Part shown: one piece after another, positions 2,073 through 25,532 of the stretch
How the letters are laid out: every line of letters starts with the position of its first letter
How positions within the stretch are numbered: position 1 is the stretch's first letter
Assembly (NCBI GenBank): GCA_001600495.1
Contig: BCKE01000080.1
Span: forward strand, 113,650-139,222
Source: Pilasporangium apinafurcum
Taxonomy: Eukaryota > Oomycota > Peronosporomycetes > Pythiales > Pythiaceae
Direction of reading: 5' to 3'
Length of the DNA: 25,573 nucleotides
Translations under genes and position numbers: made by a program
The notes under the pieces: model-generated
What the model was told of the DNA's origin: nothing
The model's input: only the letters and a program-made list of their open reading frames with translations
Database searches by the model: none

Positions 2073-2912
2073 ATGATACAGAGAGACTATTATCAACAAC
2101 GTGTGTTATTCTTTCGATGCTATCTGTGGTGTTTATCAGATTGTCCAGCGTTGCGATTTAATGCTGATGAGCGATGCAAGTCACACATCCATATTCTGCA
2201 TGTTCGATACAGGCAACAGTTGCACCGGAGTCTTATTAGATACTTATTTTATCCTACTCGCGATCTTGTGACATCTCAGGTAGGTTTCTTCCTTCGCAAT
2301 GAATGGCCAAAAAGAGCAAAGAGAAAGCGGAAACAGAGTTTTCCACTCACTCTTGAAATAACGAAACCTCGATGCAGATTAATAGTGGCTAGCTTGCGTC
2401 ACTTCTTCAAGCCACGAAAACGCAAGTGGGAGGGGCTAAGTCGATTGTATTTTTGTATGTGCAACTGCAAAGAGTATTTGATTTTGTTCGTTCATAAAGA
2501 CGACCCCAATGAGAATAAGCAAGACAAGATGCTAGTTCTTTTCTCATTGACCATCAACTATCTCGCTTATGAATTTGTTACTGCCTCACGACATCGATTT
2601 CAGTCGAAAGACATGACCGGGTCTCATTACAAGTCCAAGACGCTACTGAAATACAAGATGGAAAGGACTGAAGGAAAGATGATCGAGTGTGAGGAACACT
2701 ATACAACAAAGACTTGCTCTCACTGTAGGAGAATTAACCACACGATGAAACATCAGAAAGTCTTTCAGTGTCCGCACTGCAAGTTCGTCCTTGATAGAGA
2801 TGTCAATGCTGCTAGAAACATCTTTCTCAAGAATGGCCACCTACTCTCCTGGATTCATCGAGTCCAGGTGTCGAAGATGCCTACTCCACAGTTGGCTATT
2901 CTTGATTATTAG
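2073..2912 (+). CDS. Fanzor/TnpB-like RNA-guided nuclease, internally deleted
   Basis: This 279-residue ORF ends in the TnpB/Fanzor signature: HYTTKTCSHC, then a second CPHC (zinc ribbon C215, C218, C233, C236), then DRDVNAARNIF (RuvC-III, D241 and D243). Upstream, SHYKSKTLLKYKMER fits the helix before the ribbon, and HRFQSKDM fits the RuvC-II site, where the family normally has Glu; here it is Gln177. The middle (about 75-150) resembles the WED-like part, with basic clusters PKRAKRKRKQ (79-88) and KPRKRKW (113-119) that could also serve as nuclear import signals. RuvC-I with its Asp and about 100 following residues are absent: DKMLVLF (151-157) runs directly into LTINYLAYEF (159-168). An in-frame TAG at 2043 precedes the ATG. 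Fanzors are eukaryotic TnpB relatives that cut DNA with a guide RNA; this copy is probably not an active nuclease. It may be a relic or a reused RNA- or DNA-binding protein. Confidence 0.8.
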   Translation: MIQRDYYQQRVLFFRCYLWCLSDCPALRFNADERCKSHIHILHVRYRQQLHRSLIRYLFYPTRDLVTSQVGFFLRNEWPKRAKRKRKQSFPLTLEITKPRCRLIVASLRHFFKPRKRKWEGLSRLYFCMCNCKEYLILFVHKDDPNENKQDKMLVLFSLTINYLAYEFVTASRHRFQSKDMTGSHYKSKTLLKYKMERTEGKMIECEEHYTTKTCSHCRRINHTMKHQKVFQCPHCKFVLDRDVNAARNIFLKNGHLLSWIHRVQVSKMPTPQLAILDY

Positions 2913-3081
2913 CCCGGACCCAAACAACATAAGAGATCTTCTCTGAAGTACTATAGTATCATGATCCTTGAGGCGCTGTGCCAAAAAAATAAAAATAGAA
3001 CGCAAGGTCTACGAGTGAAACAAAAAAAACGCTTCCGAAAGTTCTCTACTATTGCATGGGTTCAATGGGTTCTACAATGTT

Positions 3082-3723: not shown

Positions 3724-5844
3724 ATGGATCGTGCGCTCCCGCTACACTCACTGTCGCTGGATTGCACGCATGATCATTCTCATCCACAGTATGTGCGTCT
3801 GCCATGCATAGACCCTTCATTGTCCTCCTCCTTTAAAGTTACCAAATACTTCAACGACACTGTTGTTCATGGTTTCCAACGGTTTACTCGCTCAGTTCGC
3901 ACTACTGCCAAAACCTCTCACTCTTGGGAACAGCGAATGAATAGTGTGCGTGGGTATCCAAGTGCATTCATGGGCAAGACCAAGACCAATGCGGTGTTTT
4001 ACAAGCAGAATTGGCTAGCCTTCCAGTGTGAAGTACTCTGTGGCATTGCTGCTATGCTGTTGCAGATCCCCGAGACCATCGCGTTTAGCTATGTGGCGAA
4101 TTTGGATCCACTCATGGGACTCTATGCTACAGGCTTCTTTGGTTTAGTTGTCAGCGTGTTTGGTGGAGTTCCCGCAACAATTGCTGGTGCAGCTGGGGCC
4201 GTTGCAGTAGTGATGCCACAATTGACTGGGAGCACAGGGTCATTACGTGACTTGCCCTATGAAAAGCGACTGGAGCATCTATTTGTGGCCGTAACAATTG
4301 TTGGGCTGATGCAATTAGTCTTTGGACTGCTTGGGTGGTCGAAATTCTTTTCAATGATCCCGCGCACCGCTCACATTGGTTTCCTGAACGGCTTGGCGAT
4401 CATGATGTTTTTGTCACAGATGACCACGTTTAAGGATTGTACAAATGATACGTTGCGATTCGGCGAGTGTGAGTTTGCGGATGAACTCACGTGGATGAAG
4501 CTATCAGACCCAACGCTCTGGATTACGATAGGGGTAGTCCTTGTAACCATGCTCATCATGCATTTCTTCCCTAGAATGCCCTATATTGGCCGAGCTATCC
4601 CGCCGACCTTGGTCGTCGCGATCGTTGGCGTCGGCTTTGAGTTCGGCATCAATCGTCCGCTTATCAAATATGACCTTCGCACCATCGGTGATACATCTCC
4701 GTTATCCGGTGGCTTCCCTTCTTTCCAGTTCCCTGACTTTGCCAATGTCCAAGACTGGGGTGCCGTACTCTCCTGTGCAGCCAGTATTGCTGCTGTTGGC
4801 ATTTTTGAGTCCATCATGACTCTACAAGCTATTGTCGACCTCACAAAGCAACGATTGACTCGCGAAGCGTGTCGCAAAGAGTGCGTGGCGCAGGGCATCG
4901 CGAATTTATTGTGTGGCTTCTTCTCTGCTATGGGCGGCTGTTCGATGATTGGTCAGTCAACAGGGAATATCTTGAATGGCGCGCACTACCGTTTGTCCAC
5001 GTTTGTATGTGGTGTCGCTACGTTTGCCGCAATCGTGTTTGCTAGTTCTGCGATTGAGCTCGTACCGATTGCCTGCCTCACTGGTATTTTGTTTGTGATC
5101 ATCGCGCATACATTTTACTGGCCGTCGCTGCGACTCGTGTTCCACATGAAAATGACCGATTCATTCGCAGTGGTGCTTGTCACAGCATTAGCTGCGGCGA
5201 TCAATCTGGCGGTGGCCGTCATTGCTGGTGTGATCTGGCAGTCGCTAGTGAACGGCTGGCGCAGTGGACAACAAATTTCTTCACTAACAACGATCGAATA
5301 TGTACCAGTAATCCATCGACACAAGCACAGTGCAATCACAGAACATGGCGATGATAGTGAAGTATGTGATGAAAGTGTCAAGGTATATTATATCAAAGGC
5401 CAGCTGCTCTTCTCGTCCGTAGCAACGTTTCGTGGGTTTTTCGACTTTGTGAAAGACCCGATGGTGGTCGTTCTCGATCTCCGCGATTGCATTTTCGCGG
5501 ATTTCTCCGCGGTGGCAGTGCTGCGAGAAGCAGCCACGCGATACCGTGAGGCGGGGAAAACATTGGTCGCTCGGCATCTCAGTGCACAATCACTAGACCT
5601 CTTGCATCACGATATTGGCTGGTCGATTGTGAGTGATATCCAGACTACCTGTGCTGAATCATGTGAGGTATGTGCGGCTGAAGAGGGCCAGCACGATGTA
5701 ACGCACCGTCCTGACAGCAAGGCACGGGTAATTCCAGCATCACCTGTCGTGCACAACTACACTCCATCGCCATTTTCACCACGGAGAGGTTCTTCATCAC
5801 CGACAATGGCGTACCATATTCTCACAAACGATACCAATCCGTAA
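3724..5844 (+). CDS. SulP-family anion transporter with STAS domain
   Basis: This 706-residue membrane protein belongs to the SulP family (sulfate, bicarbonate or similar anions). The N-terminal ~95 residues are polar. The transport core spans about 95-530 and begins with a stretch containing LLQIPETIAFSYVANLDPLM, followed by GLYATGFFGLVVSVFGGVPA and GAAGAVAVVM, close to the signature of bacterial-type SulP proteins. A C-terminal STAS domain lies at about 552-640 (VKVYYIKGQLLFSS, then VVVLDLRDCIFADFSAVAVL). The last ~65 residues are polar and Ser/Pro-rich. The start has a good context (AGAATGG). It is single-exon and differs clearly from the SulP at 1-1196, so the two are not a recent tandem duplicate. 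An AATAAA at 5887-5892, 43 bases after the stop, may be its polyadenylation signal. Substrate and membrane cannot be decided from sequence. Confidence 0.93.
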   Translation: MDRALPLHSLSLDCTHDHSHPQYVRLPCIDPSLSSSFKVTKYFNDTVVHGFQRFTRSVRTTAKTSHSWEQRMNSVRGYPSAFMGKTKTNAVFYKQNWLAFQCEVLCGIAAMLLQIPETIAFSYVANLDPLMGLYATGFFGLVVSVFGGVPATIAGAAGAVAVVMPQLTGSTGSLRDLPYEKRLEHLFVAVTIVGLMQLVFGLLGWSKFFSMIPRTAHIGFLNGLAIMMFLSQMTTFKDCTNDTLRFGECEFADELTWMKLSDPTLWITIGVVLVTMLIMHFFPRMPYIGRAIPPTLVVAIVGVGFEFGINRPLIKYDLRTIGDTSPLSGGFPSFQFPDFANVQDWGAVLSCAASIAAVGIFESIMTLQAIVDLTKQRLTREACRKECVAQGIANLLCGFFSAMGGCSMIGQSTGNILNGAHYRLSTFVCGVATFAAIVFASSAIELVPIACLTGILFVIIAHTFYWPSLRLVFHMKMTDSFAVVLVTALAAAINLAVAVIAGVIWQSLVNGWRSGQQISSLTTIEYVPVIHRHKHSAITEHGDDSEVCDESVKVYYIKGQLLFSSVATFRGFFDFVKDPMVVVLDLRDCIFADFSAVAVLREAATRYREAGKTLVARHLSAQSLDLLHHDIGWSIVSDIQTTCAESCEVCAAEEGQHDVTHRPDSKARVIPASPVVHNYTPSPFSPRRGSSSPTMAYHILTNDTNP

Positions 5845-7897: not shown

Positions 7898-9648
7898 TTA
7901 AACTACCAGTATCGATACCAACGCCACCATCGTTGCTACTATGAACCTGACAGCAGGTTTACCCATGGCTAGGCTGTTCTCATCAGTTGCTTTACCGCCG
8001 TAGCATGGAATCTCAGAAGTTGGGATTCGTTTTAATGCCGTCACTAAATCCGCGTAAGGTTCCTGCCATGAAGTGGTCTGCATGATACCGAAGTGCGTAT
8101 AGCCGAAAACGCCTTTCTTTTCATCTGCCGCATCTTCCAAGTAATATGCTGTGTCCGGATTCAGCGCCCAGAAGTATCCACCCTGCATACTTGCCGCAAA
8201 ATCAATCAAAAAATCCAGCGCAGCTGTTTGATGCGGCTGGCCCGTGCCATAGACACCGCTGAATGAGCCCAAGATCATTGTGGCATTTGCGTTCTTTAGG
8301 TCGCCCAATGCTTCCGCCATCACGCGTTCGTATTGTGCGGGCAAGTCAGAGACCGACAAATGCTTGTATGTGTCGCATCCAAACGTCGATGATGGGCACG
8401 GAAGCTCGCTCTTTATCTTCTTGCTACCATCCGTGAAATCCACGCACTCGGTTTCGGTTTGATCACTCTTAAAGTCGTATTGATCGATATCCGTAGATGA
8501 GCAATTACTGTCTGCAGAGTAAAAGTAGTTTTGTGGGTATACGCCGTGTGAATGTGCGTGTGGTGCGTACACGATCTTGTTCTCGATGGAGACGTTCAGC
8601 GCGTTTAACGTTGCGTTCTTCAAATTACCACCGGCCCAATGGTCACTGAGCTCTTCGTAGTCTTCGGTGACATGAAATCGCTGGAAGTCTGTCGGCGAGC
8701 TGGCGCCACCAACGAAGACAAGCCATTGCGGGCAAAGCTCCAGTACCCGATCTGCCAATGTTTGTGCAGCCTGATGCCAGTCGTTTTTTATGTTGGCGTC
8801 ACCGGCGTCAGCATTCCATTGCGCATCGAGCATTTCATTCTTCAAGTCAATGCCCAGCACGTTCCAGTAGTTGGCATTGCAAAGCTTCTCAGCTAAATAC
8901 GAAACGGCTTTGTACGTGCCGGATTTGGTGATCTCGACGTATGGTGCAGTGTACCAGAGTGCATCTTGAGGATAAATATCCAAGAGATGGATGTCGAGTA
9001 GAACGGTGATCCGATGGTCCTGGAACGTCTGAATGATACGACTAAGCAACGAAATGTAGCCAACATTGTTGAGATCATCCCACGTCGTGAACTCCGGGTT
9101 TTCATATGAGTGGATGAAACCAATTTGTGGGGCTGGATTGTTAATCACATAGTCGGCATTCAACGGCAGCCGCACGGAATTAAACGAGTTGTTGGTCAAG
9201 AACTCCATGATATTTTTCTACACAGTCCATAAAAAATTAGTAAGTATTTGATTTTCAAATATAATTATTAAAGAACATTAACAGCATGCTTACCACGGTA
9301 GTAGCTTGTGTGCCATACGAATTGGGAGAATCCGTGCCCCACAGCCCATCGGGGATCATGTTTTCCTTTTCCATTCCACTCCATGAGACGCCACGGATCT
9401 TGATTTCCGTTTCTTCTGTACTGTTGGGATCCAGCGCGAGAATCTTACCATCTCGTGCTACATAATTCGGCTGTCGGCACTCTATACATCCATTCCATCA
9501 CAGAACCACGTCAATTTCCAAACACGACTGAATGGCTGAAGCTGCATATAAATTCATGAAACGCACCTAAGTATCCATACACGACTGTAGAAATGAGCGC
9601 AATGGTGCAGAGCGACGCAAATAGCGAACGCACCCCAATTGCTCGCAT
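7898..9648 (-). CDS. Secreted GH5 glucanase-like protein, three exons, C-terminal membrane anchor
   Basis: Exons 9648-9567, 9481-9294 and 9217-7898 join in frame to 529 residues. The introns are 85 and 76 bases (GTGCGT to ATAG, GTAAGC to GTAG). Exon 1 is a signal peptide (MRAIGVRSLFASLCTIALIS). Exon 2 has the GH5 strand-1 signature IKIRGVSWSGME with DGLWG. Exon 3 has NSVRLPLN, the acid/base region GIDLKNEML (N217, E218), YAPHAHSHGVYP and the late Trp motif GGYFWALNPDT. GH5 enzymes cleave beta-glucans such as cellulose. The last residues are hydrophobic (FIVATMVALVSILVV), suggesting a GPI or membrane anchor, so it may act at the cell surface on the organism's own wall or host wall. The usual nucleophile motif GEFG reads GSFSG here, with Ser408 in place of Glu, so activity is doubtful. 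The start at 9648 is chosen for the signal peptide and an A at -3. Confidence 0.88.
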
Positions 9649-11601: not shown

Positions 11602-11634
11602 ATGCGCAATGCGCGAGTCCACACTCGCTCTTAG
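11602..11634 (+). other. Short upstream ORF overlapping the CFAP47-like start
   Basis: An ATG at 11602, seven bases before the main ATG, opens a 10-codon frame ending in TAG at 11634. Its context is poor (C at -3) while the main start has G at -3, so leaky scanning could favour the main frame. Confidence 0.35.
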
Positions 11635-14600
11635 CGACCACCTCGATCGTCCACGCACTGCAACGAGATCGGTGCTTCAATTGTCACCGCCAGCGATCGA
11701 GTTTACGGGAGTGGAGCCTACAGGCCAGTGCTATGTTGCCAACTTCGCCGTGAAGAACACAAGTGACCGCGCATTAAAGTTCCGTATCATCCCTCCCACA
11801 CGCGCATCTTCGTTCCATTTGCTCTCGCGTAGTGGTGAGGATCTTGCGCATACCAGCAACCCAACTGTCAAGCTACCGCCTGGGCTGAGTATAAGATATG
11901 ATGTCACATTCGAGACAGAGGATTTGGATATGGCACCGCTCGTGTTGGATACCCTGCAAGTGAAAGGTGAGGATGGATCATATTTGGAAGTGCCACTGAT
12001 GGCGAGACGAGCGTGTCCCATTGTTGAGGTAGAGTCACGACTATGTGATTTCGGACTGGTGGTACTTGGTCAACGTGCAGCACAAGTCGTCAAGTTACGT
12101 AATGTTGGCTCACGCACGGGCCACGTCGAGATAGAAGTGCTAGATGGCGGCAATGATAGCACAGCGAAGGTAAGCGGTAATAACAATTCCGGCAACCATA
12201 CTGCTTGCGTGACCGTATCGCCGACAGAGGCGATTCTGACACCGAACGACGCCGTGACTATGAAAATTGACGTCACAGGGAAAGAAGTCGGCAATTTTCG
12301 CACAATTTTGCGTATTCGAATACACGAAACTGTTGACTCGAAAGCGGAAGAAGATGATGATCATGTGCAGGTACAATCAACGGTAGTAGGCAAAGCTTAC
12401 GCCGAGAATATCGTCGACATTTCCGGTAAAATTGTCGAGCATACGGTCGAGTTGGTACTGAAAAACAGTGATGAACCGATCAGATCGCTGTTCTTTGGTT
12501 CCTTGTTTGCAGGAGAATCGAAAGTTATTGAAACGCTTTTACGGAACAATGGACCACAACCGTTGCATTTCAAGACATCATTGACATTTGTTGGAAGCGG
12601 AGCAGCTCATGGGAGCCATAGCAACGGCAAAAACGCCGGCAGTGGCGAGCATAGTGTGGGAGATGAAGACAGAGAAGCATACGAACGCCGCAAGGAACTT
12701 CAGGTGTTCCCTTCTGAAGGGAAAGTCGAACCATTTGCGGACTTGCTCATCACCTTTTCCTATCGACCACATGCAGTTGACATCCATACACTTCAGGAGA
12801 TGGATTATAAGCGTCGAGTCACGGAAGCTCGAGAGAATAGTAGTGGCTCCAATAACAACCTACCGAGCGACTCGGTGTTTCTCAACGCCTTCGCGTCTAT
12901 TCATTGCACAGAGATTCAAGCTCAAAATCTTACTGTCGAAGTCACCGGCAAGAAATTCTTGCCCTGGTTAGAAATTACACCATCATCTACCTTAGATTTT
13001 GGTGATGTCAAGACACATGACCGTGCTGATATGTTGCTTTCACTCAAGAATGTATCAGGACTTCCCGTTCATTTTGCGATATCAAAAGTGGCACACTTCT
13101 CCACCAAGCCAAGCTCTGGACGGCTCGATGTTTTACAATCACTGAGCCTGATCGTAAGTTTTACACCGACACAGCTGGGATCATTTCGGAATACATTGGA
13201 GCTTACTATCAATAGAGATATCCTAGTAGTCCCAATCCAGGTAAAAGGCAATGCTGCTGCAGTTGGAGATGTCAAAAGCAAGCCTCTGATTGGAGGGATT
13301 CAAGCATTACCGAGTGATTTTGTCCCAAAGTACAAATTTGTACTCGCAGACGAGGCCAAAAACAGTAAGGGCACACTCACTCACAGGTTCCACCGGATGC
13401 CTGCATACGAAGTAGCAGCACTGAATGGCACCGCCGCAATTGATGAGTACGAGTTTCAAGGTACAAACAACACACATTTGACTTATTGTGTCAAAGAATT
13501 GGCGAAGCGTGCGGAGCACAATGCTAGCTATCACGATTATTTAGCAGATTGTTGGCATCAGCGCAAAGAGAAAGCAAAGCGGAAATCAGCAACAGAAATT
13601 AAAAAGAATGTGTCAGTTGCTCGCAACATTAGCGAGAAGGAACGTGCTACGGACGACAACAACGACGATATCAACCTGGGGATGGAAAGGCAAAGCGGCG
13701 TGGAACCACGAATGTTGAGGCTTTCTCCAGATATTGTGCGGAAATCTGATCCATTGTGGCTAAAAGAGACTTCCGGTACAAGTGGAAATCACGCTAACGT
13801 TAAGGTGCTATTTGATGAGAACAAGTTTGTGAAGAAGAAATACAAGCCTCATCCAAGCACACAGGCTGAAATGGCTGACTGTGGAAAAACACTAAACTTT
13901 GATGAACTTGAACAAGTAATTTCTGGTCCAAAGACGTTGAATTTCGGGAAATTGAGTGTCAATGGCGTCGCTAAGAGAAGTTTGAGCATTCAAAACAATC
14001 TGGCACATAATGTGTTGATTTCGCTACATCTGAACGAAATGACCAAAGATTTGGAAGAATTGGCATCAATGACTGTACTCAAGTCGCAGGTTGTGCCACC
14101 TCGATCACTAGCGGGTTTTGATGTCTACTTCACGTCCAAGAAAGAGCAATTTTTTCAACGACAACTGACATTCTCCATCAATGGCGTGCATACTCGTCAG
14201 GTTATGATCGTCGCTGAAGTCACGCCGATCGTGGTGGAGCTATCCACCGATGAGTTACAATTTGAGTTCAGCTACCTTAATCTAAATCCATCAATGTCGC
14301 TGGAGGTGACGCTATCGAATTCAAGTGACTCTGTGGCACCGTTCTCGTGGAGTGCAGTTGCATCAAGCACAACTCTTGTGCGGCCGGATTCATCTAAGAG
14401 TAATGATACCGTTAAAACATCATCAGACAAGACGATGAGTGCGGTAAATCCCACGGTCGGTCCATCTGTCTTCGAAATAGTACCTGCTAGTGGAACACTT
14501 GGTCCAGCTGCGACGGCAGTATGTCAAGTGGTCTTCACACCACCAGCTTCAGGATTTAATGCTTCACAGTTCTGTCAGCAGACACAAGATCGGGATTCTG

Positions 14601-17600
14601 GTGGTGCTTGGCTGTCATCGATCTTTCAACTTGATGTAGTGGGTGGCAGAAAGGCATTTTTGAAGTGTAAAGGGCTCGTTCAGGATGTGAAAGTGAGCGT
14701 CAAAGATAAAAAAGTAGATTTCGGAACGATCTCTGTCGGAATGGAAAAGGAAAAGCGACTCGCTATTATGAACACAAGTAATGACTCGACAACTTCGTCC
14801 CAACGTTTGGTTTTCTACGCGAGTGTGGAACCAGCATCAATAGCGAATTCATTGGGAGTATCTTTGGCGCCTTTAACGGGGACTATTCTATCTCAAGAGA
14901 CGTGTGAGATCTGTGTGAAAATAGTACCCCACAAGGCAGTTACACTCGACAATAATAGTTTGATAGTCAACGTACAAATCCGTGGCGGTAAGAGCATTAA
15001 GATACCAATTGTTGCAACAGTATTGGTACCAGATGTGCACGTCACACTCGCAAATGCAGTCGATTTTGGCGACGTGATTATCGGCGTTTCAGTTCCACGT
15101 GTCATTTCGCTTGAAAACCATAGCACTATTCCTGCATGCTTGATTGCGGATCTCTCCAGCACACTTACCGACGAATTTACTATCGCGACGCCATCAAAAT
15201 TGCTTGCACGATTCGAGGATGTTGGTAGTATCTTCCTACCGATTATGGATAGGAAATCTGTGCCATCAACTGGATCAGGACACCTAAATTCCAGCTCACC
15301 ATCAGTATGTGATACTACTACTGATTCGGATCTGGACTCTATATGCTCAAAATGGCAAATTTGCATTCCACCAAACTCCAAAGTGGCTTTTCATCTGGTG
15401 TTTACTCCAAAGCGACCAGGAAAACACGATCACATGATGCCGATCCAATTTGCAGGTGTAAGTAGTGGCACTGGCATCGGAAGACCCGAGTCAATTACCA
15501 GACGAGTGATCGCCACAGCTGTTCCCCCTAGAGTGTTATTTTCTGCTGCGGCTTTGAATTTCCACCGGTGTGTGATTACACGTGAGGGAATTCGCAAGGT
15601 TCCGTACACAAAAACGCTCGTACTTACAAACAACGACACGAAATCCGTCAAGTGGAGTATCGATACGAATCAATTGAAGCAAGCAGCACAGTTTGCAAAT
15701 CCAGCATCCACGGTGAAACGAGTTGGAGCGACTTCAGCATCTGCCGCATCCATGATTTTCCATATTGCACCGGACAAGGGTGAACTTGCTCCGAATGAAG
15801 AAGTAAAGATCCGAGTGAGTTTTCTACCCTTAGAAGCTGTCGAGTACGTTGAAGAAGAGATCCCGCTCTTTGTGGATGACCAATTCTATATCCACTTTAG
15901 TGTACGTGGTGAAGGAATTTATCCGCATCTCTCATTCAGTGAAAACAAAGTTATTTTGCCTACCGTTCCATTGGGTATCCCTTCGATTGCCAGAGTTTTT
16001 GTTCAGAGCACTGGGTATGATCATTTGGAAGTCAACTATCGGGTGCCGTTAGATACCGCCAAAGCTCCTGTGACGCTGCATTTTCCGAAGGGAAAGATCC
16101 TCAGCATGGCTTGTCCAAAAGTCCCAGTAGAGATTCGTTTCTGTAGCAAGAAGAGCGTTGCGTTTAACGCTAGGATCGAGTTTTTTGACGCAGACGGCAA
16201 TGCATTTCACCTGCCAATCGCTGGTTGCGCCGAAAATTGTGTGCTGACAAACTTTACGTTCCTCGAAGGGAGTGGAGTTGATCGAAAGATTATCGACGAC
16301 GCATTAGATCCTGCAACGATTGGTATCAGTGGCGTTCTTCGTGAAGAATCTGAAGCAAATGGCAATGGTAATGATAAATTGAAACGAGCTAATTATCAAT
16401 CCGCAGCCATCTCGAATGTAGCTAATATAGGTTATTATACTCACATATCGGGACGCTTTCCGATATACCTCCTCCATAACAAGCAAATCGAAACTGAATT
16501 GACGAAACACACGCAGGACCAAACAGGCAACCCACAACAGCAACATCAGCCATATGAACAAAACGGATTTGTGGATGTGGACCCCACGCTATTCTCTGGC
16601 GAAGATACTGGATTGACTTCCACTACGACCCACATGCTTCACCTTGTACCTGGGATCTCAAGTCAAGCAGATTCATCCCACCATCATCAACCTTCACAGT
16701 TCAGCGAAAGTGAAATCCAATTCTTGGTCCAATATTTAAACGCTAATTTTCTTCGCAACCCGGTAAAAAAATTTCCCCAAGACTTTGCAGATGCATTAGG
16801 GAAACCGTTATATGAATTGCTGGATATGGTGTGTCTAAAGAAACCACCTGGTGGTACGGCAATGCCAGGTTTGACTATTAGCGGGAAAGCGAACAAAAAT
16901 GCCGTGTTGCCGACGAAAAAAGATCTTCTGGTGCACTACACTAGTCAATATACGGAATTACTGAAGTTCTTAAAATCATATGGTGCCATGATTCATGATG
17001 TCTATCCAGAACATTTACTCAGCCAAGAATTTTACGTTCGTGCTTGCGAAGACCCTTGTGTGGACCCAGCTGTTTTGTCGTCCCTGACGCTTTCGTCAAT
17101 GAAATTTCTGCAACGCCGACATGTACTGGAGAACGAATGGGAACAAATCAGCGCTACAGCGTGGATGAAAGTTCTGTATCAGGTGGTTAAGTGCTTTTTG
17201 CTGTATCGAATTACGTGGAAGGGGTATCAACAGCAGCAATCGCAGCTACATTCAGGTAGCGGAGGCTTAGTGTTCAATCCAAGATTCTGTCAAGGTAGTA
17301 ATGTGTACAGTGAGGCAGAAATGGTGATGATACAATGGATTTGTGATTGTGTTCGGTCTCAGCTCTATTTATCTGGATACGCAAAGGAAATTAGTGGCTT
17401 GGAAGCTCAATTAGTTGATATCAAGCGCGATTTAGGAGACGGAAGTTTTCTCTTCTACTTAATCGCAGCACATATTCCGATAATATCACCGGAGCAAAAC
17501 GAATATCGTTGCTTCCAACTGGATTATGGCAAAAGTGGCTCGCTGAAACAAAAGCGTCTCTCTCCTGCCCAGCTACGACACAACACTAGTGTACTCTTGC

Positions 17601-20600
17601 AAACACTGGGGTCATTTGGAATTGACTTTGGGATTGATCCAACTGTATTTTTGCAAAGAATGAATAGCCGAGAGATGGTGATTCTGCTACTACATATGAA
17701 CCAGATGCTCCCGCAGTTTATTCCAAAAGCGACGATTGAGTTTAAAGGTGCCTTGGGGCAAGTAATGGAAAAGAGTATTGAATTGAAAAATCCCAGTCCT
17801 CGGGCTTTGCGATATCAAGTGTTTCTCGATGGAGAGTCCAATCATGGAACAGCTGGCAACAGTGCATTTACGATTGAATCGAACCATGTTGTCTTGGAGC
17901 CTGGGAAAACCGTGCCATTCATGGTATCCTTCTGTCCGCGCTTCTCTCGGAAAGTATCGGCACGTCTGGTCTTTCAGTCTGTACGAGAGATTCCACCATC
18001 CTCTGCAGCATCGGGTGCGACAATGGTGTTTCTCCTGGAATCGAACGTTGTATCGAGGAAGCCAGTGCGAATAATTCAGATTGAAGCGAATACGTACGAA
18101 AAGAAGATAGAAGAGTTGGTGATTGAGAATCAATTCCCGGCTTCTGGGAGTTATAAAGTTTCTATGACTCAAATCTACCAACAGCAGTCCAACACCTTAC
18201 AGGACACCGTTTCAGCTTCGTCGTCTTCTTTGCAGAAATCAACTACTACGATGGGCGGACCTGGAAAGAGGAGGCGGAAATCAGTCCAAACAAGAGAGAT
18301 CATTGCAGCCGTTAGTACAGTTAGTAGTTCTCAGCCTCAATCATCCACGACTGGACCTCGCAGATCGTCACAAGTCGGAAAAAGTCGCGACGAAGTCGAT
18401 TGTTCCTGGTGCATGGCTGCCCAACAGCCGTTTTTTCTTTCTGAATTCGGTATGAGTGGTAGCAACACTGGAGACTTTTACAGCAGCGATAGTGAAGCAT
18501 CTTCGTCAAATGGGAATGCAGTCATCAGCATTCGCAATTTGGGGACAGCTACAGTCAAATTAGAGTTTCTCCCGCTTGTCCCTGGAAACTATCGGTGTCA
18601 ACTGCTTTTTCTAGACGAAAAGGTGGGTGAATTTATGTATGAAATCCACGCAACCGCGCATTTACCCGGTAGTCTTGAAACCTTGGAACTGCAATGTGAA
18701 ACTACAATTACGGCTGGTGGCGGAACTGCTGGAGTTAAAGCAAATCGTTTCCATTTTGTTAGAGAGCTGGTCGTTCCAGTGAAGAATCCTTCACTTACGC
18801 GTGCCCTCGCCAATTTCGTTGAGCGTTGTAATGGTGTGTTGAAGACCAAAGTGAAAGACGGCTTGAAGAAATGCGAGGAGGGACACCACAAAGCTTTCCA
18901 AATAGAGTTTAACTCTCCATATTTTACAACTGTGCATCCCGAGCTGATACTGAGCAATGCTGCCAGTTCCACAAAAATATCTGTTAGCAACGCTGGGGAG
19001 AACCCATCACTGTCAGCTGCAAGTAGTGAGGGGTCAAATCGAGAGCTCTCAGTTTTGAATACATCAGGAAAATCTGCGTTGAAGCCCACTCAGGCTCGTT
19101 TAAGTACACCACGTGCCGGTAATTTGAATTCTGCGATGCCAAATAGCGTATTGATAGATTTTCAGCCTAAAGGAGCTGGTGTGTACACCTGTAAACTTCT
19201 CTTGCGTTCCCATCATACTGTCTGCGGTAGTTCCGATGTGCGCGTTTACGATTTGGTCGCCAAAGTGAAGGAGCCGAGCGTGAAGACGTTGCTTGAATTC
19301 GTGGCTCCTGCGAGGCACACTATCGTCCAAGAGATCCCCCTTTCGAATCCATCTGACACACTGTGGATACTGAAAGCCGTCTTCGAGATGGGCACAAGTA
19401 CGCACGCAAGTATGTTTACCGGTCCGACAACACTCCAGATTCCACCAAAGAAGACTGTGAGTTACCCGTTGACATTTGCTCCAAAATGGATAACGACTGA
19501 AAAGTGCAGCTTCATGCTTGTGAATCCATCGACACAACAACAGTTTGAGTTTGAGCTAAACGGGTTCGCAGAGGAGCCACTTGCCCAGGATCATGTTGTG
19601 CTTTCTTGTCAGGCACGTACGAGCGTGGTTCATGAATTTGATGTGATGAGTTTCAAAACCGATCCGTTAGGTGTGCAAAGTTACAAAGTCGAATCCGATC
19701 TACGGGATGTTGTTGGCGATCCGATGGTAACAATAATGCATGCGGGTGGGCACGTCAAGTATCCGCTAACGTTCAGTCCTCGGGTGAGTGGGACATATTT
19801 CGGATCTATCACCTTTACCAACCTCGCTACGAAGGAATACATTTGGTACACTATTGAAGCGAACGTGGGCCCACCAGAAGCAGAGGCAACACTTGAAATG
19901 TGTACTATGGTACGTGGTGCCATTGGTGTCGAAATCAGCCTTGCAAACCCATTAGACCATGCTGTCACATTTGTGATTGAACTGCGAGGAGAAGGTCTAC
20001 AGGGTCCAGAAACATTTTCGCTCGAAGCTAAGGAAAGTGGCGTTTACGAACTCGCCTTTATTCCTTTACTAGTCACATCCAAGTCAGGGGAGCAAATCCA
20101 CAATGAAGGCGCGATTTTGTTCTCCAACGATGATATTGGTCAGTTTTGGTACCGCTTGCTGCTCACGGCCGAACCTTGTCCTCCGGTTGAACTCACAGAC
20201 ATGTGTTGTGCTGTGGGAGATGTTTGCTCGGAGCCGATTTGGCTCCAGAATCCGACAGATAGGGAATTGCTGCTGCAATATAAAGTTACAAATCCGCGCA
20301 ACTTCTCTATTAAAGGGGGAGTAGAAAGTAGACATCCTAATTCGTCCCAGCGGATAGTTATTCCACCATATGGTCAAGCGAGTGTTGTCCTGGAATATAC
20401 GCCTTCATCTTTGTCGGACCTTGAAACAACTAGTGTGGTCTTCTTTGAACCCGGTGTTGTAAGTGATTGGGAATTTGTGGTCAAAGGAAGGGGCAAGGCT
20501 CCCAGTGTAATGAAGCCCATTATTGTGCATGCTAAAGTCAACGAGGCTGCATCGACATTGTTCACTTTCAAGAATCCTTTCGCCGACGTCTTGCGTGTTG

Positions 20601-21619
20601 ATGTCAAACTAGTGATCATCCCGCATGATGACGACAATCGAACGCGTATGAAATTGCGGAACGAGGACACTTCCAATGTGTTTACAATCTTGTTGAAAAA
20701 GAGTCGTGTACAACTGGAAAGCTTCGGTCACTTACAAGTGCCTATCTCCTTTACTCCTCAATATGTATCAGCAGCTCATGCGGAGATTATTATCAGTGGC
20801 GCAGACGCTTATAGCGAGTTGGAATGGCGGTACCCAATTGAAGGTATTGCTGAGGCGCCGCTGCATCCACGGCCATTCGTGTTGGCGTGTCATGCGCGAG
20901 AATCGGTCGAGAAGACAATTAATTGCGAGTTACTAGCCTCTCCTCCAGATATAATCATCGCAAATGAAGTACTTACGGCTGAGTGGGAGATTCCTGCCGA
21001 ACGCTTTGGTGTACTCGCCTGTGCAGCTGCCATCGAACGGTCGCTGACGGTCACACCGCTTACAGTTCCTGCTTCTGCGTCATCACCTAATACTGTGCAG
21101 TATCAGATTCGATTCGACCCATTAAGACCATATCGTGGCTCGATTTACTTGCTCATAAAAAAGCAAAGCGGTGGCCAATGGCGATTCGAAGTCGTGTTGG
21201 ACGTGAGTGACCCCCCGATCGACGATGTACTCGCGATCGAAGCCAGCCTCAACCAAACATCATCCATCTCATTCCAGTTGCGCAACCAATTCCGCATCGA
21301 TGCACCGTTCGTGGCTGATTTTTCGCCCGGATCATCGAATGCATTCACGGTCTATCCGACGGAAGGCGTGCTTCCTCCTTATGGTAGCGTCGAAGGAGTG
21401 TCGTTTGTAGTCTCCTTCACACCGACTGGCTACGGCAAAATGCAATCAGGTCAGCTGTTGATTACTACGGAAGAAATGCAATGGACATTCAATATTAAAG
21501 GCACCTATCCAGACGCCACTGTCAGCGGTAGCAGCAGTTTAAGCTCCACTGCGTCGCGTAACAGATTGGGAATTTCTGGCACTACTAGCAACAGAAACAA
21601 ATATCGAGGCAAGAAGTGA
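11609..21619 (+). CDS. CFAP47: CFAP47-like cilia and flagella protein, giant single exon
   Basis: This 3336-residue protein is built mainly of repeated Ig-like ASH (ASPM-SPD2-Hydin) domains. Typical strand pairs recur as a D/N-F-G motif followed by a run of hydrophobic residues and an Asn: FGLVVLGQRAAQVVKL (about 149), LDFGDVKTHDRADMLLSL (463), LNFGKLSVNGVAKRSLSI (778), VDFGTISVGMEKEKRLAI (1037) and VDFGDVIIGVSVPRVISL (1151). A calponin-homology domain lies at about 1900-2035 (MIQWICDCVRSQLYL, DLGDGSFLFYLIAAHIP, MVILLLHMNQMLPQF), preceded by a helical part (about 1690-1830) and followed by more ASH-like domains to the end. Many ASH domains plus one central CH domain and a length near 3200 residues fit CFAP47 better than Hydin. 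Such proteins belong to the axoneme, so it should serve zoospore flagella. Low-complexity Ser/Gln/Asn stretches interrupt the domains (near 1640-1690 and 2190-2270). No intron is needed over 10 kb. Confidence 0.85.
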   Translation: MRESTLALSDHLDRPRTATRSVLQLSPPAIEFTGVEPTGQCYVANFAVKNTSDRALKFRIIPPTRASSFHLLSRSGEDLAHTSNPTVKLPPGLSIRYDVTFETEDLDMAPLVLDTLQVKGEDGSYLEVPLMARRACPIVEVESRLCDFGLVVLGQRAAQVVKLRNVGSRTGHVEIEVLDGGNDSTAKVSGNNNSGNHTACVTVSPTEAILTPNDAVTMKIDVTGKEVGNFRTILRIRIHETVDSKAEEDDDHVQVQSTVVGKAYAENIVDISGKIVEHTVELVLKNSDEPIRSLFFGSLFAGESKVIETLLRNNGPQPLHFKTSLTFVGSGAAHGSHSNGKNAGSGEHSVGDEDREAYERRKELQVFPSEGKVEPFADLLITFSYRPHAVDIHTLQEMDYKRRVTEARENSSGSNNNLPSDSVFLNAFASIHCTEIQAQNLTVEVTGKKFLPWLEITPSSTLDFGDVKTHDRADMLLSLKNVSGLPVHFAISKVAHFSTKPSSGRLDVLQSLSLIVSFTPTQLGSFRNTLELTINRDILVVPIQVKGNAAAVGDVKSKPLIGGIQALPSDFVPKYKFVLADEAKNSKGTLTHRFHRMPAYEVAALNGTAAIDEYEFQGTNNTHLTYCVKELAKRAEHNASYHDYLADCWHQRKEKAKRKSATEIKKNVSVARNISEKERATDDNNDDINLGMERQSGVEPRMLRLSPDIVRKSDPLWLKETSGTSGNHANVKVLFDENKFVKKKYKPHPSTQAEMADCGKTLNFDELEQVISGPKTLNFGKLSVNGVAKRSLSIQNNLAHNVLISLHLNEMTKDLEELASMTVLKSQVVPPRSLAGFDVYFTSKKEQFFQRQLTFSINGVHTRQVMIVAEVTPIVVELSTDELQFEFSYLNLNPSMSLEVTLSNSSDSVAPFSWSAVASSTTLVRPDSSKSNDTVKTSSDKTMSAVNPTVGPSVFEIVPASGTLGPAATAVCQVVFTPPASGFNASQFCQQTQDRDSGGAWLSSIFQLDVVGGRKAFLKCKGLVQDVKVSVKDKKVDFGTISVGMEKEKRLAIMNTSNDSTTSSQRLVFYASVEPASIANSLGVSLAPLTGTILSQETCEICVKIVPHKAVTLDNNSLIVNVQIRGGKSIKIPIVATVLVPDVHVTLANAVDFGDVIIGVSVPRVISLENHSTIPACLIADLSSTLTDEFTIATPSKLLARFEDVGSIFLPIMDRKSVPSTGSGHLNSSSPSVCDTTTDSDLDSICSKWQICIPPNSKVAFHLVFTPKRPGKHDHMMPIQFAGVSSGTGIGRPESITRRVIATAVPPRVLFSAAALNFHRCVITREGIRKVPYTKTLVLTNNDTKSVKWSIDTNQLKQAAQFANPASTVKRVGATSASAASMIFHIAPDKGELAPNEEVKIRVSFLPLEAVEYVEEEIPLFVDDQFYIHFSVRGEGIYPHLSFSENKVILPTVPLGIPSIARVFVQSTGYDHLEVNYRVPLDTAKAPVTLHFPKGKILSMACPKVPVEIRFCSKKSVAFNARIEFFDADGNAFHLPIAGCAENCVLTNFTFLEGSGVDRKIIDDALDPATIGISGVLREESEANGNGNDKLKRANYQSAAISNVANIGYYTHISGRFPIYLLHNKQIETELTKHTQDQTGNPQQQHQPYEQNGFVDVDPTLFSGEDTGLTSTTTHMLHLVPGISSQADSSHHHQPSQFSESEIQFLVQYLNANFLRNPVKKFPQDFADALGKPLYELLDMVCLKKPPGGTAMPGLTISGKANKNAVLPTKKDLLVHYTSQYTELLKFLKSYGAMIHDVYPEHLLSQEFYVRACEDPCVDPAVLSSLTLSSMKFLQRRHVLENEWEQISATAWMKVLYQVVKCFLLYRITWKGYQQQQSQLHSGSGGLVFNPRFCQGSNVYSEAEMVMIQWICDCVRSQLYLSGYAKEISGLEAQLVDIKRDLGDGSFLFYLIAAHIPIISPEQNEYRCFQLDYGKSGSLKQKRLSPAQLRHNTSVLLQTLGSFGIDFGIDPTVFLQRMNSREMVILLLHMNQMLPQFIPKATIEFKGALGQVMEKSIELKNPSPRALRYQVFLDGESNHGTAGNSAFTIESNHVVLEPGKTVPFMVSFCPRFSRKVSARLVFQSVREIPPSSAASGATMVFLLESNVVSRKPVRIIQIEANTYEKKIEELVIENQFPASGSYKVSMTQIYQQQSNTLQDTVSASSSSLQKSTTTMGGPGKRRRKSVQTREIIAAVSTVSSSQPQSSTTGPRRSSQVGKSRDEVDCSWCMAAQQPFFLSEFGMSGSNTGDFYSSDSEASSSNGNAVISIRNLGTATVKLEFLPLVPGNYRCQLLFLDEKVGEFMYEIHATAHLPGSLETLELQCETTITAGGGTAGVKANRFHFVRELVVPVKNPSLTRALANFVERCNGVLKTKVKDGLKKCEEGHHKAFQIEFNSPYFTTVHPELILSNAASSTKISVSNAGENPSLSAASSEGSNRELSVLNTSGKSALKPTQARLSTPRAGNLNSAMPNSVLIDFQPKGAGVYTCKLLLRSHHTVCGSSDVRVYDLVAKVKEPSVKTLLEFVAPARHTIVQEIPLSNPSDTLWILKAVFEMGTSTHASMFTGPTTLQIPPKKTVSYPLTFAPKWITTEKCSFMLVNPSTQQQFEFELNGFAEEPLAQDHVVLSCQARTSVVHEFDVMSFKTDPLGVQSYKVESDLRDVVGDPMVTIMHAGGHVKYPLTFSPRVSGTYFGSITFTNLATKEYIWYTIEANVGPPEAEATLEMCTMVRGAIGVEISLANPLDHAVTFVIELRGEGLQGPETFSLEAKESGVYELAFIPLLVTSKSGEQIHNEGAILFSNDDIGQFWYRLLLTAEPCPPVELTDMCCAVGDVCSEPIWLQNPTDRELLLQYKVTNPRNFSIKGGVESRHPNSSQRIVIPPYGQASVVLEYTPSSLSDLETTSVVFFEPGVVSDWEFVVKGRGKAPSVMKPIIVHAKVNEAASTLFTFKNPFADVLRVDVKLVIIPHDDDNRTRMKLRNEDTSNVFTILLKKSRVQLESFGHLQVPISFTPQYVSAAHAEIIISGADAYSELEWRYPIEGIAEAPLHPRPFVLACHARESVEKTINCELLASPPDIIIANEVLTAEWEIPAERFGVLACAAAIERSLTVTPLTVPASASSPNTVQYQIRFDPLRPYRGSIYLLIKKQSGGQWRFEVVLDVSDPPIDDVLAIEASLNQTSSISFQLRNQFRIDAPFVADFSPGSSNAFTVYPTEGVLPPYGSVEGVSFVVSFTPTGYGKMQSGQLLITTEEMQWTFNIKGTYPDATVSGSSSLSSTASRNRLGISGTTSNRNKYRGKK

Positions 21620-22766: not shown

Positions 22767-25532
22767 ATGAGCGAAGCCATTTCGGAAGCAAGCACTGGAG
22801 CCACTAAGTTCGAGTTATTGGACGGTGGTACCAATCCAGCACATCATGCAACCGTTGCTACTGACAGTGCAGGTGCCGTTATCGCCGCTGAATTGCCTTC
22901 GATAACACCTTCTCTATCATCTCCCTCGGCTTCACAAATACCGGTGTTCNGTCAGCAGTGTAAAACAGCNAATNACAATCTTGATATGACTTCCCAGCAC
23001 CGTTATGCNGCACACTGTGGGAATGCCATTAAAGTTACTTGGATTCGAGCAATTGTCGCCTGCTTCTCCTATCTGATGCTCTTCACCGATATTCCGCGTA
23101 CCGGGTTGGCCGTTACCAATCTCNACGAGAAATACACGCAAATAGAGCCCAATATTTTCCTTTCGTTCGGTCCGTACTGGTATTCCACGGCGCAGATCCG
23201 TGCTAACGAGACAACAACAGAGGAAACTAGCACTAGCGGCTACAAAGTTTTTACATACAAGTATGATACAGTGTCGATCGGACTGCGATCGTTTGTGAAA
23301 TATCTGCAACTTCCAACGTTTCCAGATTGTGTGATGTATTGGAGCAATTGTATGAGTGACTTCCTCAGTAGTGCAACTGTGTTTAAGATGCTAGATTCGC
23401 TGGTGGACACAGTTGCAAGTCGATCTCAACTGCAGGAATCGGCGGGATTGGGGAATGTCCCTGCATCCATATCTCCTGTTGCAATTACATTGCGATCACG
23501 ACATATGTGGTTCGATCAGCTCCATCATCATCTCCTTCCGTCGTTCTTCAACAAACCCATTTGGCGGACAAACCAGGTGCTGCACTATCCAGTGGGTTAC
23601 TCCTCGGTGCTGCTTCCGTTCAACGCTTCGCTTTGCTCGATATCTAATCCCATCCGTCCATACTCGTGCGACGAACGTTGGGTGNACTTTCTATATGGAT
23701 GTGNCGNNANTGGAACTACTNTNTGCCAAGTTCAAATGGGGTATCTATGGACGCATATCCTNGAAAGACAACAAACGATTCAGTCCATGTATCCAGAGTT
23801 CCAGGTGGATCTGACGATTATCGAGAGTACTGAAGACTCGACATTTAATCGCGGCGGATTATCGTACCTCGGTCGCCGTANGTATGACATTCTCACGATT
23901 TCGCGTGTGCGAAATTGTAATGGTAATGANACCACGAGCNCTNGCTGTGAGACGNTNTTTATTGAGGATTACCGCNNTGAAGGCGAGATNTTCACGTCTG
24001 ATGTACTTAACTGGTATTGGGTTGTTGCAACGCTGCGATGTNTTGGCCAAGGNTACATGTATTTACGCTGCATTGCACTCTTTTGTGGATGCTACCGGGC
24101 GACCGCAATGTCAGAGAAGGGAAAAACTATTCGACCTAAGACATTCTCCTTGCGACGTCTTCGTGCAGCGGCATTGATGTTTCTCAGGATTCCGTGTCAG
24201 GTGGTGATCTATGGTAGCTGGTTCCCGTTGGTCTGTTATGTCTCGGCGCACATCATCGATTCACCTATAACGTACGAGATGGTGGCGCATAAGATCAATT
24301 CAGTAAACGGGATCCTCAGCATTAGCTTTCGAGATTTTATCTCGATCGCCACCGTTCGAATGCGTAACGTGTGGTTCATGGCTCTTATCGTGCATTTCTT
24401 CACGTACGTGGCATCTCGGCGGACAAATTGGGTAGCGTCAGCCACAGGCGTTCGGGGTGTGCGTGAATTTTCGATCACACTCATTTCGGCCGTCACAGTC
24501 TTTGCGCAGTACAGATCCGTGAGCTTCCGTAGCACTCCAATCGTCTCGGTCAACGAAGTGGTCGGTGGTTCGCATGGTGTGATTGGACTGAAGCAGTTCA
24601 GCTATCAAAGCAATGGCGGTGGGAATGAACTCTGGGAAGGCATATTGCTGGACGTCAAATGTGTTGGATGTGTGCTGGTCGGGTTGGTTTCGCTCACTAT
24701 TGCTTTTCACGCGACGATAGCAGTGGTCAAGCTGATGCGTCAACGGCTACGTGGCGAAGCACAACCAAAGCGAGAAAAATATATGGTTGCTGTCCAACGC
24801 ATGAAGAGAACGCTTTTCCTCGAGACAACTCTGGCGCCATACTCAAGTGGTATCCTCTGGCCGGCATCAGCTCTCAGTGTAGCGTGGGACGAAGCAGTAG
24901 TATTTCCACACGAGGTAGAGAACTCAACACCTTCCGTTTCACCTACAAAATATGCATCGTGGAAGGCTCAAGTGCGGACAATGGTGATACCAGCGAAGAA
25001 ACGAGTCAGCCAAATGGCATGGAATAGCTCCTACCTTAGTGGTTCGGAGTGGGAAACGGATAGATGTACTTCACTGANGAAAAGCATCCCAGAATTACCA
25101 GCGACGGCTGAGATCCCTACAACTACTCATGTCATCCTCTCAGGNGGAAAGGAAGGAAAAGTGGATGATATACGTAAGAAGAGCGCTACCAGCGATCTGA
25201 TATCGTTCGTTATGTTGCAGGGCGAACGTGAGATCTTGCAGTGGAACCTTGAACGCATACTGGAGCGACGACCNGAAGTGNTGTCTCTTGTCTCGTTAAT
25301 GAATTTAACGTTCCTGACTGATCTCTGGNCATTGGTACGGCTGCGGTTTTTCGCCAACCAAGAGATTTATTGGTTGCAATCGAAACGCACGAAACAGATC
25401 GTGCTGATGCCAAAAGAAGTTGTGGAACTGGGCTTTCAAGCTAATACGTGGGTCGCATGGGACGAGTTCGAGGTGCTTTTGGTGAAAAATACGCAGGAGA
25501 TGGAATGGAGTGACCTATTACACTGTGGATGA
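22767..25532 (+). CDS. Multipass membrane protein of unknown function (921 residues)
   Basis: I do not recognise a named family. The N-terminal ~90 residues are polar and Ser/Thr/Ala-rich. A first membrane segment lies near 93-112 (IRAIVACFSYLMLF). A large, probably non-cytosolic domain of about 310 residues follows, with several Cys and possible N-glycosylation sites (NETT, NASL). A cluster of about four or five further membrane segments follows (about 428-445, 470-498, 534-550, 566-582, 630-655), then a cytosolic-type tail of about 260 residues. The tail's last 80 residues (from SLMNLTFLTDLW to SDLLHCG) are conserved in the decayed copy at 22170-22418, so the ending is genuine. About 30 isolated N bases give unknown residues, mostly between 22950 and 24053, but the frame stays open. 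The start has A at -3. The layout would fit a surface protein or receptor, but that is a guess. Confidence 0.8.
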   Translation: MSEAISEASTGATKFELLDGGTNPAHHATVATDSAGAVIAAELPSITPSLSSPSASQIPVFXQQCKTXNXNLDMTSQHRYXAHCGNAIKVTWIRAIVACFSYLMLFTDIPRTGLAVTNLXEKYTQIEPNIFLSFGPYWYSTAQIRANETTTEETSTSGYKVFTYKYDTVSIGLRSFVKYLQLPTFPDCVMYWSNCMSDFLSSATVFKMLDSLVDTVASRSQLQESAGLGNVPASISPVAITLRSRHMWFDQLHHHLLPSFFNKPIWRTNQVLHYPVGYSSVLLPFNASLCSISNPIRPYSCDERWVXFLYGCXXXGTTXCQVQMGYLWTHIXERQQTIQSMYPEFQVDLTIIESTEDSTFNRGGLSYLGRRXYDILTISRVRNCNGNXTTSXXCETXFIEDYRXEGEXFTSDVLNWYWVVATLRCXGQXYMYLRCIALFCGCYRATAMSEKGKTIRPKTFSLRRLRAAALMFLRIPCQVVIYGSWFPLVCYVSAHIIDSPITYEMVAHKINSVNGILSISFRDFISIATVRMRNVWFMALIVHFFTYVASRRTNWVASATGVRGVREFSITLISAVTVFAQYRSVSFRSTPIVSVNEVVGGSHGVIGLKQFSYQSNGGGNELWEGILLDVKCVGCVLVGLVSLTIAFHATIAVVKLMRQRLRGEAQPKREKYMVAVQRMKRTLFLETTLAPYSSGILWPASALSVAWDEAVVFPHEVENSTPSVSPTKYASWKAQVRTMVIPAKKRVSQMAWNSSYLSGSEWETDRCTSLXKSIPELPATAEIPTTTHVILSXGKEGKVDDIRKKSATSDLISFVMLQGEREILQWNLERILERRXEVXSLVSLMNLTFLTDLWXLVRLRFFANQEIYWLQSKRTKQIVLMPKEVVELGFQANTWVAWDEFEVLLVKNTQEMEWSDLLHCG

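Follow-up and report, generated by a model that had tools for sequence, protein, structure and literature searches.

The locus and its reading frame

The window, by which we mean the whole stretch of 25,573 nucleotides that was analysed, lies on contig BCKE01000080.1 (C80) of the 36.5-Mb, 136-contig genome assembly of the oomycete Pilasporangium apinafurcum. The feature under study is an ATG-initiated reading frame of 279 codons on the forward strand, at 2073-2912, which was confirmed in the open reading frame listing of the window and contains no ambiguous base. Two divergently oriented genes of the sulfate-permease family flank it, one at 3-1196 on the reverse strand, running off the window, and one at 3724-5844 on the forward strand. 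Farther along, a 436-residue open frame on the reverse strand (7898-9208) matches the cellulase (GH5) family, a forward-strand open frame of 3336 amino acids (11609-21619) with a CFAP47 domain and several ASH/Ig-like matches probably encodes a ciliary protein, and a 921-codon forward frame (22767-25532) contains many ambiguous bases, the assembly being unresolved there.

A preliminary description, made from the letters of this DNA, had assigned the frame to Fanzor, and the assignment holds. The frame contains a zinc ribbon (C215/C218/C233/C236, at 2715-2780) and the RuvC-III aspartate D243 (2799-2801) within the motif DVNAARN, and it matches the Pfam family Cas12f1-like_TNB (PF07282) with an E-value of 4.7e-20, the match being confined to residues 185-250. 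The 15 PDB sequences retrieved at E-values up to 1 are for the most part TnpB, Cas12-type and Fanzor-like proteins, and all of them align inside residues 157-257. When compared with P0002, the product of the best full-length Fanzor gene in the genome, residues 183-279 reach a score of 381, the highest among shuffles being 64, whereas the similarity of residues 1-182 is at the level of shuffles, 76 of 200 of which reach the score. Also as first described, the 279 codons are free of stops and RuvC-I is lost: the DPG motif, present at position 296 of P0002, is absent from the frame, as is everything that lies upstream of it in Fanzor.

The frame is a three-part chimera of unrelated DNA, the left-end leader of a transposable element and the 3' end of a Fanzor gene, all on the forward strand. 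Residues 1-122 (2073..2437) are non-element DNA for which no relative was found in Fanzor or in the rest of the genome. They are followed by the left-end block of a B-type IS607/Fanzor2 element with the leader of tnpA, the gene for an IS607-type serine recombinase (2439..2618; the window accounts for one of 41 genome match rows), the last six bases of which (ATG ACC, 2613..2618) are the start of the former tnpA frame and stand in frame with the Fanzor tail. A deletion join at 2619, with a spacing of 1 base, leads into the Fanzor 3' end (2620..2912; residues ~183-279, the last ~97 codons), beyond which a B-type right end with a decayed terminal hairpin, identified in alignments of 52 stretches and of 25 right ends, occupies 2913..2973.

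Full-length relatives

The genome yields at least 141 match rows to the frame, including the window, of which 134 begin at residue 150 or later; the count is a lower bound, 139 of 715 candidates having been scored, and some elements yield two rows. The best full-length relative, at locus L064 on contig C62, is the open frame of 504 codons that encodes P0002, a protein with an OrfB-type helix-turn-helix domain, the DPG motif, the zinc ribbon, D469 and, six residues ahead of CxxC, the glutamate E434. Just upstream of this Fanzor gene lies a resolvase-family match with two stops. It is one of three matches to PF00239 in the genome, at L064, L068 and L073, with two stops, none and one inside the match, respectively; the remaining two likewise adjoin Fanzor genes, and of these the match on C55 is free of stops while that on C1 contains a single one. 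L064 and the other full-length relatives have the IS607 arrangement of Fanzor2 elements, a serine recombinase upstream of Fanzor, as set out in Bao and Jurka 2013 (PMC3627910) and PMC10711439, and share with the proteins treated in the latter the DPG motif, the rearranged RuvC-II glutamate, the zinc ribbon and the RuvC-III aspartate. Unlike these elements, the window copy is without the outermost left end, tnpA past its first two codons and about 80% of the Fanzor frame.

Comparison with L064 identifies both element-derived parts of the frame. Window positions 2620-2902 correspond to the Fanzor 3' end in L064, where the two blocks are 1589 bases apart, and the left-end block runs on into the N-terminus of tnpA in both L064 (for the last 59 bases) and L035. 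The L064 stretch that matches window 2560-2618 ends 6 bases into the recombinase frame (ATGACCAAGTATGG..., MTKYGSSAKVREIF...), L064 continuing past the tnpA start as ATGACCAAGTATGG, which translates as MTKYG.... Read in the leader frame, L064 gives ...RFQSKDM-TKYGSSAKVREIFDIHPETIRG, and the Fanzor segment that matches lies 1.6 kb farther on. The segment LTINYLAYEF...RFQSKDM, which had been taken for the RuvC-II region, is by this comparison the tnpA leader, and the supposed replacement of the RuvC-II glutamate by Gln177 falls within residues ~124-182, which correspond to DNA upstream of the recombinase gene in full-length copies.

In Fanzor proteins, according to PMC10711439, the RuvC-II glutamate is rearranged and stands six residues before CxxC; the residue at this position of the window frame, E208 (2694-2696), is intact. 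We found no paper in the literature under the term 'alternative glutamate' for Fanzor. Aligning full-length relatives from the same genome, as the preliminary description had proposed, places a glutamate at the RuvC-II site (E208) but no RuvC-I motif in the window frame. The frame thus lacks one catalytic acid, that of RuvC-I, and keeps two, E208 and D243; originally two of the three had seemed missing.

The genome also contains a second, distant Fanzor-like family, about 36-44% identical to P0002, at L076 (C12:23000-25600), at L075 (C24:143100-145700, with ambiguous bases) and on C32, C33, C6, C18 and C19; inspection by eye of the 648-codon open frame at L076 shows DPG, DRDVSAAKN and a glutamate that precedes the zinc ribbon by six residues. 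Pairs of inverted Fanzor segments, tens of bases to several kb apart, occur at C21:32152-33600, C6:393416-394818, C6:356466-357428, L029, C3:607435-609552 and C66:195595-201544. No relative was confirmed among viral contigs, and the 181 phage records with a match were all below 60% identity (27-28% among the ten matches listed).

The deletion join in other copies

At the DNA level, the similarity of the window to other copies is restricted to positions ~2438/2443 to 2973; the closest copy in the Fanzor tail, at L034, is 88.7% identical. A census of 78 loci (all 81 that were fetched, minus L001, L031 and L074 (window itself); several overlap) recovered both blocks in one orientation in 38 rows, which correspond to 32 distinct places. 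The window's join recurs, to the base, at 12 other places, two of which match only to window position 2654 (L078) and 2722 (L081); a second class of join has a spacing of 280-293 (8 places), other spacings range from 235 to 643 (6 places), and a near full-length spacing of 1439-1687 is found at 6 places. Because the loci were fetched by similarity to the window or to P0002, these counts are not genome-wide rates, and they may include duplicates (L055/L056 on C56, L033/L081 on C2, and L069/L070). Places with the second-class join, in which the tnpA start is followed by the Fanzor tail 280-293 bases on, are C26:92212, C4:107675, C91:57229, C17:256806, C28:31884, C83:79214, C26:257849 and C46:262379.

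The window and the copies with its join are 78-83% identical over the aligned parts. Together with the recurrence of the same join at 12 other places, this indicates that the deletion is old and that the deleted form multiplied, which speaks against a young deletion, one of the two alternatives proposed at first. The join is present in 10 of 11 aligned short copies, the flanks of which, by eye, mostly look unrelated; extra left sequence is common to L036 and L047 and to L044, L055 and L056, also by eye, so that not all of the flanks can be called independent. L038, considered as a copy with the join, was rejected, its upstream sequence being Fanzor coding sequence. Many copies of the Chlamydomonas Fanzor1 elements CRe-1, CRe-2 and CRe-3 (PMC3627910) similarly retain the 3' end but are missing 5' and internal parts; these are Helitron-associated Fanzor1 elements, whereas the element in the window is of the IS607 type, with one deletion join exactly common to several copies.

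The upstream stretch and the openness of the frame

Used as a protein query (residues 1-124, E-values up to 1) or as a DNA query (E-values up to 0.1), the upstream stretch matched nothing in the genome except the window itself. Residues 1-122 match no Pfam family, and their similarity to P0002 is within the range of shuffles, 34 of 200 reaching the score. A single Rfam match, at 2313-2509, was taken as chance, its 18 bits (E-value 0.25) being below the cut-off of 117. Seven of the 141 match rows begin before residue 150, namely that of the window, three rows on C3 and single rows on C50, C80 and C10; as candidate N-terminal relatives they were rejected, residues 1-124 alone having matched the window only.

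In the frame of the ORF, the upstream stretch receives -0.21 per codon from a codon score for which four of the window's reading frames served as training set, against an intergenic median of -0.20 (122 overlapping segments) and a coding 5th percentile of -0.008 (38 segments of the four training frames), and the codon usage of residues 1-122 accordingly looks intergenic. As a measure for transposon genes the score is weak, because the Fanzor-derived part of the frame itself obtains just -0.099 and, among the five other frames of 2073-2438, four outscore that of the ORF. One of these, on the reverse strand, is within the coding range at -0.007; the reverse strand of 2073-2438 has no stop-free stretch longer than 50 codons.

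The length of the frame counts against its being a relic. In simulated sequence of matching composition, a run of 122 stop-free codons has a probability of 0.00135 and one of 182 was found in none of 20,000 sequences, so that for one given copy the openness is unlikely to have arisen by chance. Of the match rows, 53 of 141 (window included; frameshifts not counted) have no stop inside the match, which provides many chances for one of them to extend and makes a long frame less surprising.

Element ends and a possible guide-RNA region

In an alignment of 52 stretches from other copies with the window, most right ends are of one of two types. The A-type right end, found in L064 and others, terminates in ...CCCAAACAATAACGGTTA, while the B-type right end (window, L032, L019, L072 and others) consists of a hairpin, then ...ATGATC. 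The right ends of a few copies, such as L020 and L070, fit neither type well, and L034, the nearest copy in the Fanzor tail, is without the B-type right end. The hairpin of the window copy lacks 4 bases where other copies read TCAT, and ~30 further upstream bases that are common, by eye, to 8 of 9 other left ends are missing; the window copy has a right end that is present but decayed and a left end that is partly kept.

The element appears to have no terminal inverted repeats, in line with IS607 elements: between window positions 1200 and 3700, a reverse-complement right-end probe scores 20, below the maximum of 32 obtained with 60 shuffles. A transposon with terminal inverted repeats that had captured a Fanzor gene was rejected, there being no inverted right-end copy beside the window element. 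We take the high inverted scores at some other loci to come from reverse-strand copies or second inverted copies; the score at L042, 32, equals the shuffle maximum.

It is conceivable, and in our estimate highly improbable, that the short elements have been kept as carriers of the guide-RNA region at the right end, to be used in trans by a full-length Fanzor protein. Eleven short copies retain the Fanzor 3' end and the right end, the genome has open full-length Fanzor frames (L064, L076), and the reRNAs of IS607 TnpB and Fanzor elements arise at the right end and extend past it, as reported in PMC10711439. The terminal hairpin of the B type is paired in 90.8% of cells in an alignment of 25 copies, but covariation in the same 25 copies is not above that of shuffles (195 of 500 reach the score), the hairpin of the window copy is damaged, and any movable element needs its ends retained.

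Decay of the short copies

If anything is translated from the locus, the 99-codon sub-frame that opens at the former tnpA ATG and continues through the Fanzor tail (2613..2912, forward strand) would be a likelier product than the 279 codons. A 99-residue zinc-ribbon mini-protein, for example an interfering or RNA-binding Fanzor fragment, would make use of the old start context, since the deletion left the tnpA ATG in frame with the Fanzor tail, and its zinc ribbon is open in the window copy. Among the 11 other short copies the same is true of one, L036, in which the RuvC-III motif is lost. In the other 10 the zinc ribbon is not intact: eight copies are ended by stops or frameshifts, and in L042 and L055 the frame stays open beyond the ribbon, some of whose cysteines are gone. 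The ATG itself is missing in 5 of the 11.

The pattern of substitution also points away from a retained protein. Among the ten copies with the join, pairwise differences over 2622-2849 are nearly even across codon positions 1, 2 and 3 (559:527:619), as against 160:82:287 in the seven A-type copies over the same stretch; the group of 11 that includes L038 gives 758:695:624 for positions 3, 1 and 2. L038, which is without the join, was kept in the 11-copy sets used for branch changes and for the zinc ribbon and left out of the ten-copy count of codon positions. When the window is compared with each of 46 other copies, Ka/Ks ranges from 0.18 to 0.69 with a median of 0.35; in these values past selection on the source elements is mixed with later decay. 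Five of the eight changes private to the window are nonsynonymous. Of the 12 changes assigned to the window branch after the split from L034, 6 are nonsynonymous, against a neutral expectation of 73.5% (one-sided p = 0.07); on the L034 branch the figure is 13 of 17, and three changes were ambiguous. The deficit on the window branch is a weak hint of retained function, beyond which nothing tested supports one. We consider the mini-protein very improbable.

The preliminary description had suggested, as its other alternative, that the frame was kept as a nuclease-dead, possibly RNA-guided binding protein. TldRs are such derivatives: they descend from TnpB-type nucleases, their RuvC domain is dead, and they retain the guide-binding architecture, with the N-terminal domains. 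The Fanzor part of the window frame is likewise of TnpB-type nuclease descent and without a working RuvC triad. The 279 open codons, the intact zinc ribbon, E208 and D243 and the slight nonsynonymous deficit would all suit a domesticated protein of this kind. Unlike in TldRs, the guide-binding N-terminal domains are not kept, residues 1-182 having no similarity to P0002 beyond that of shuffles: all of Fanzor upstream of residue 183, including RuvC-I, is absent, and what stands in place of its beginning is intergenic-looking sequence with neither a relative in the genome nor a Pfam family. Such a function would require domains that are absent; moreover, the join is a deletion of the whole family and nothing special to the window locus, and the near-even variation across codon positions and the loss of an intact zinc ribbon in 10 of 11 short copies speak against it as well. 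We regard it as close to untenable.

That the frame is an assembly or haplotype artefact joining unrelated pieces is scarcely credible, for although ambiguous bases occur elsewhere in the assembly (window 22767-25532; L075) and the boundary at 2438 is seen in the window copy only, 12 other places show the join of position 2619 as well, and 2073-2912 is free of ambiguous bases.

Interpretation

Most probably, the window contains a non-autonomous IS607-type Fanzor2 element that has undergone internal deletion and is now dead, and the frame runs into this copy from unrelated DNA upstream; we assign this reading a probability of about 0.9. In a full-length element, tnpA and the Fanzor gene lie between a left and a right end. 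On this reading, a single old deletion that began at the third codon of tnpA and reached about codon 409 of Fanzor, in the numbering of L064, left a mini-element of roughly 530 bases, which was presumably moved by the recombinase in trans and so spread to several sites. In the window copy the outermost portion of the left end and some of the right-end hairpin were subsequently lost, and the adjoining upstream stretch happens to be open in the same frame, giving the 279-codon chimera. We infer that the frame yields no functional protein.

A further proposition, which we hold to be very unlikely, is that the family of mini-elements spread by keeping its ends and the guide-RNA-bearing 3' region of Fanzor, and perhaps also the 99-residue frame, as parasites of the recombinase and nuclease of full-length elements. 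If this were true, the mini-elements would be parasites, in a eukaryote, on both the recombinase and the RNA-guided nuclease of full-length Fanzor2 elements. In the open-licence literature, as far as its accessible sections extend, we came across no account of comparable miniature Fanzor2 elements.

The reading of the locus as the relic of a deleted element removes a false lead, in that the apparent active-site substitution was a recombinase leader read as nuclease, to which the search for a glutamate of the TnpB type instead of the Fanzor type contributed. It also documents a family of internally deleted Fanzor2 elements in a eukaryote, and provides a set of copies that may be used for examining the borrowing of nuclease and recombinase in trans.
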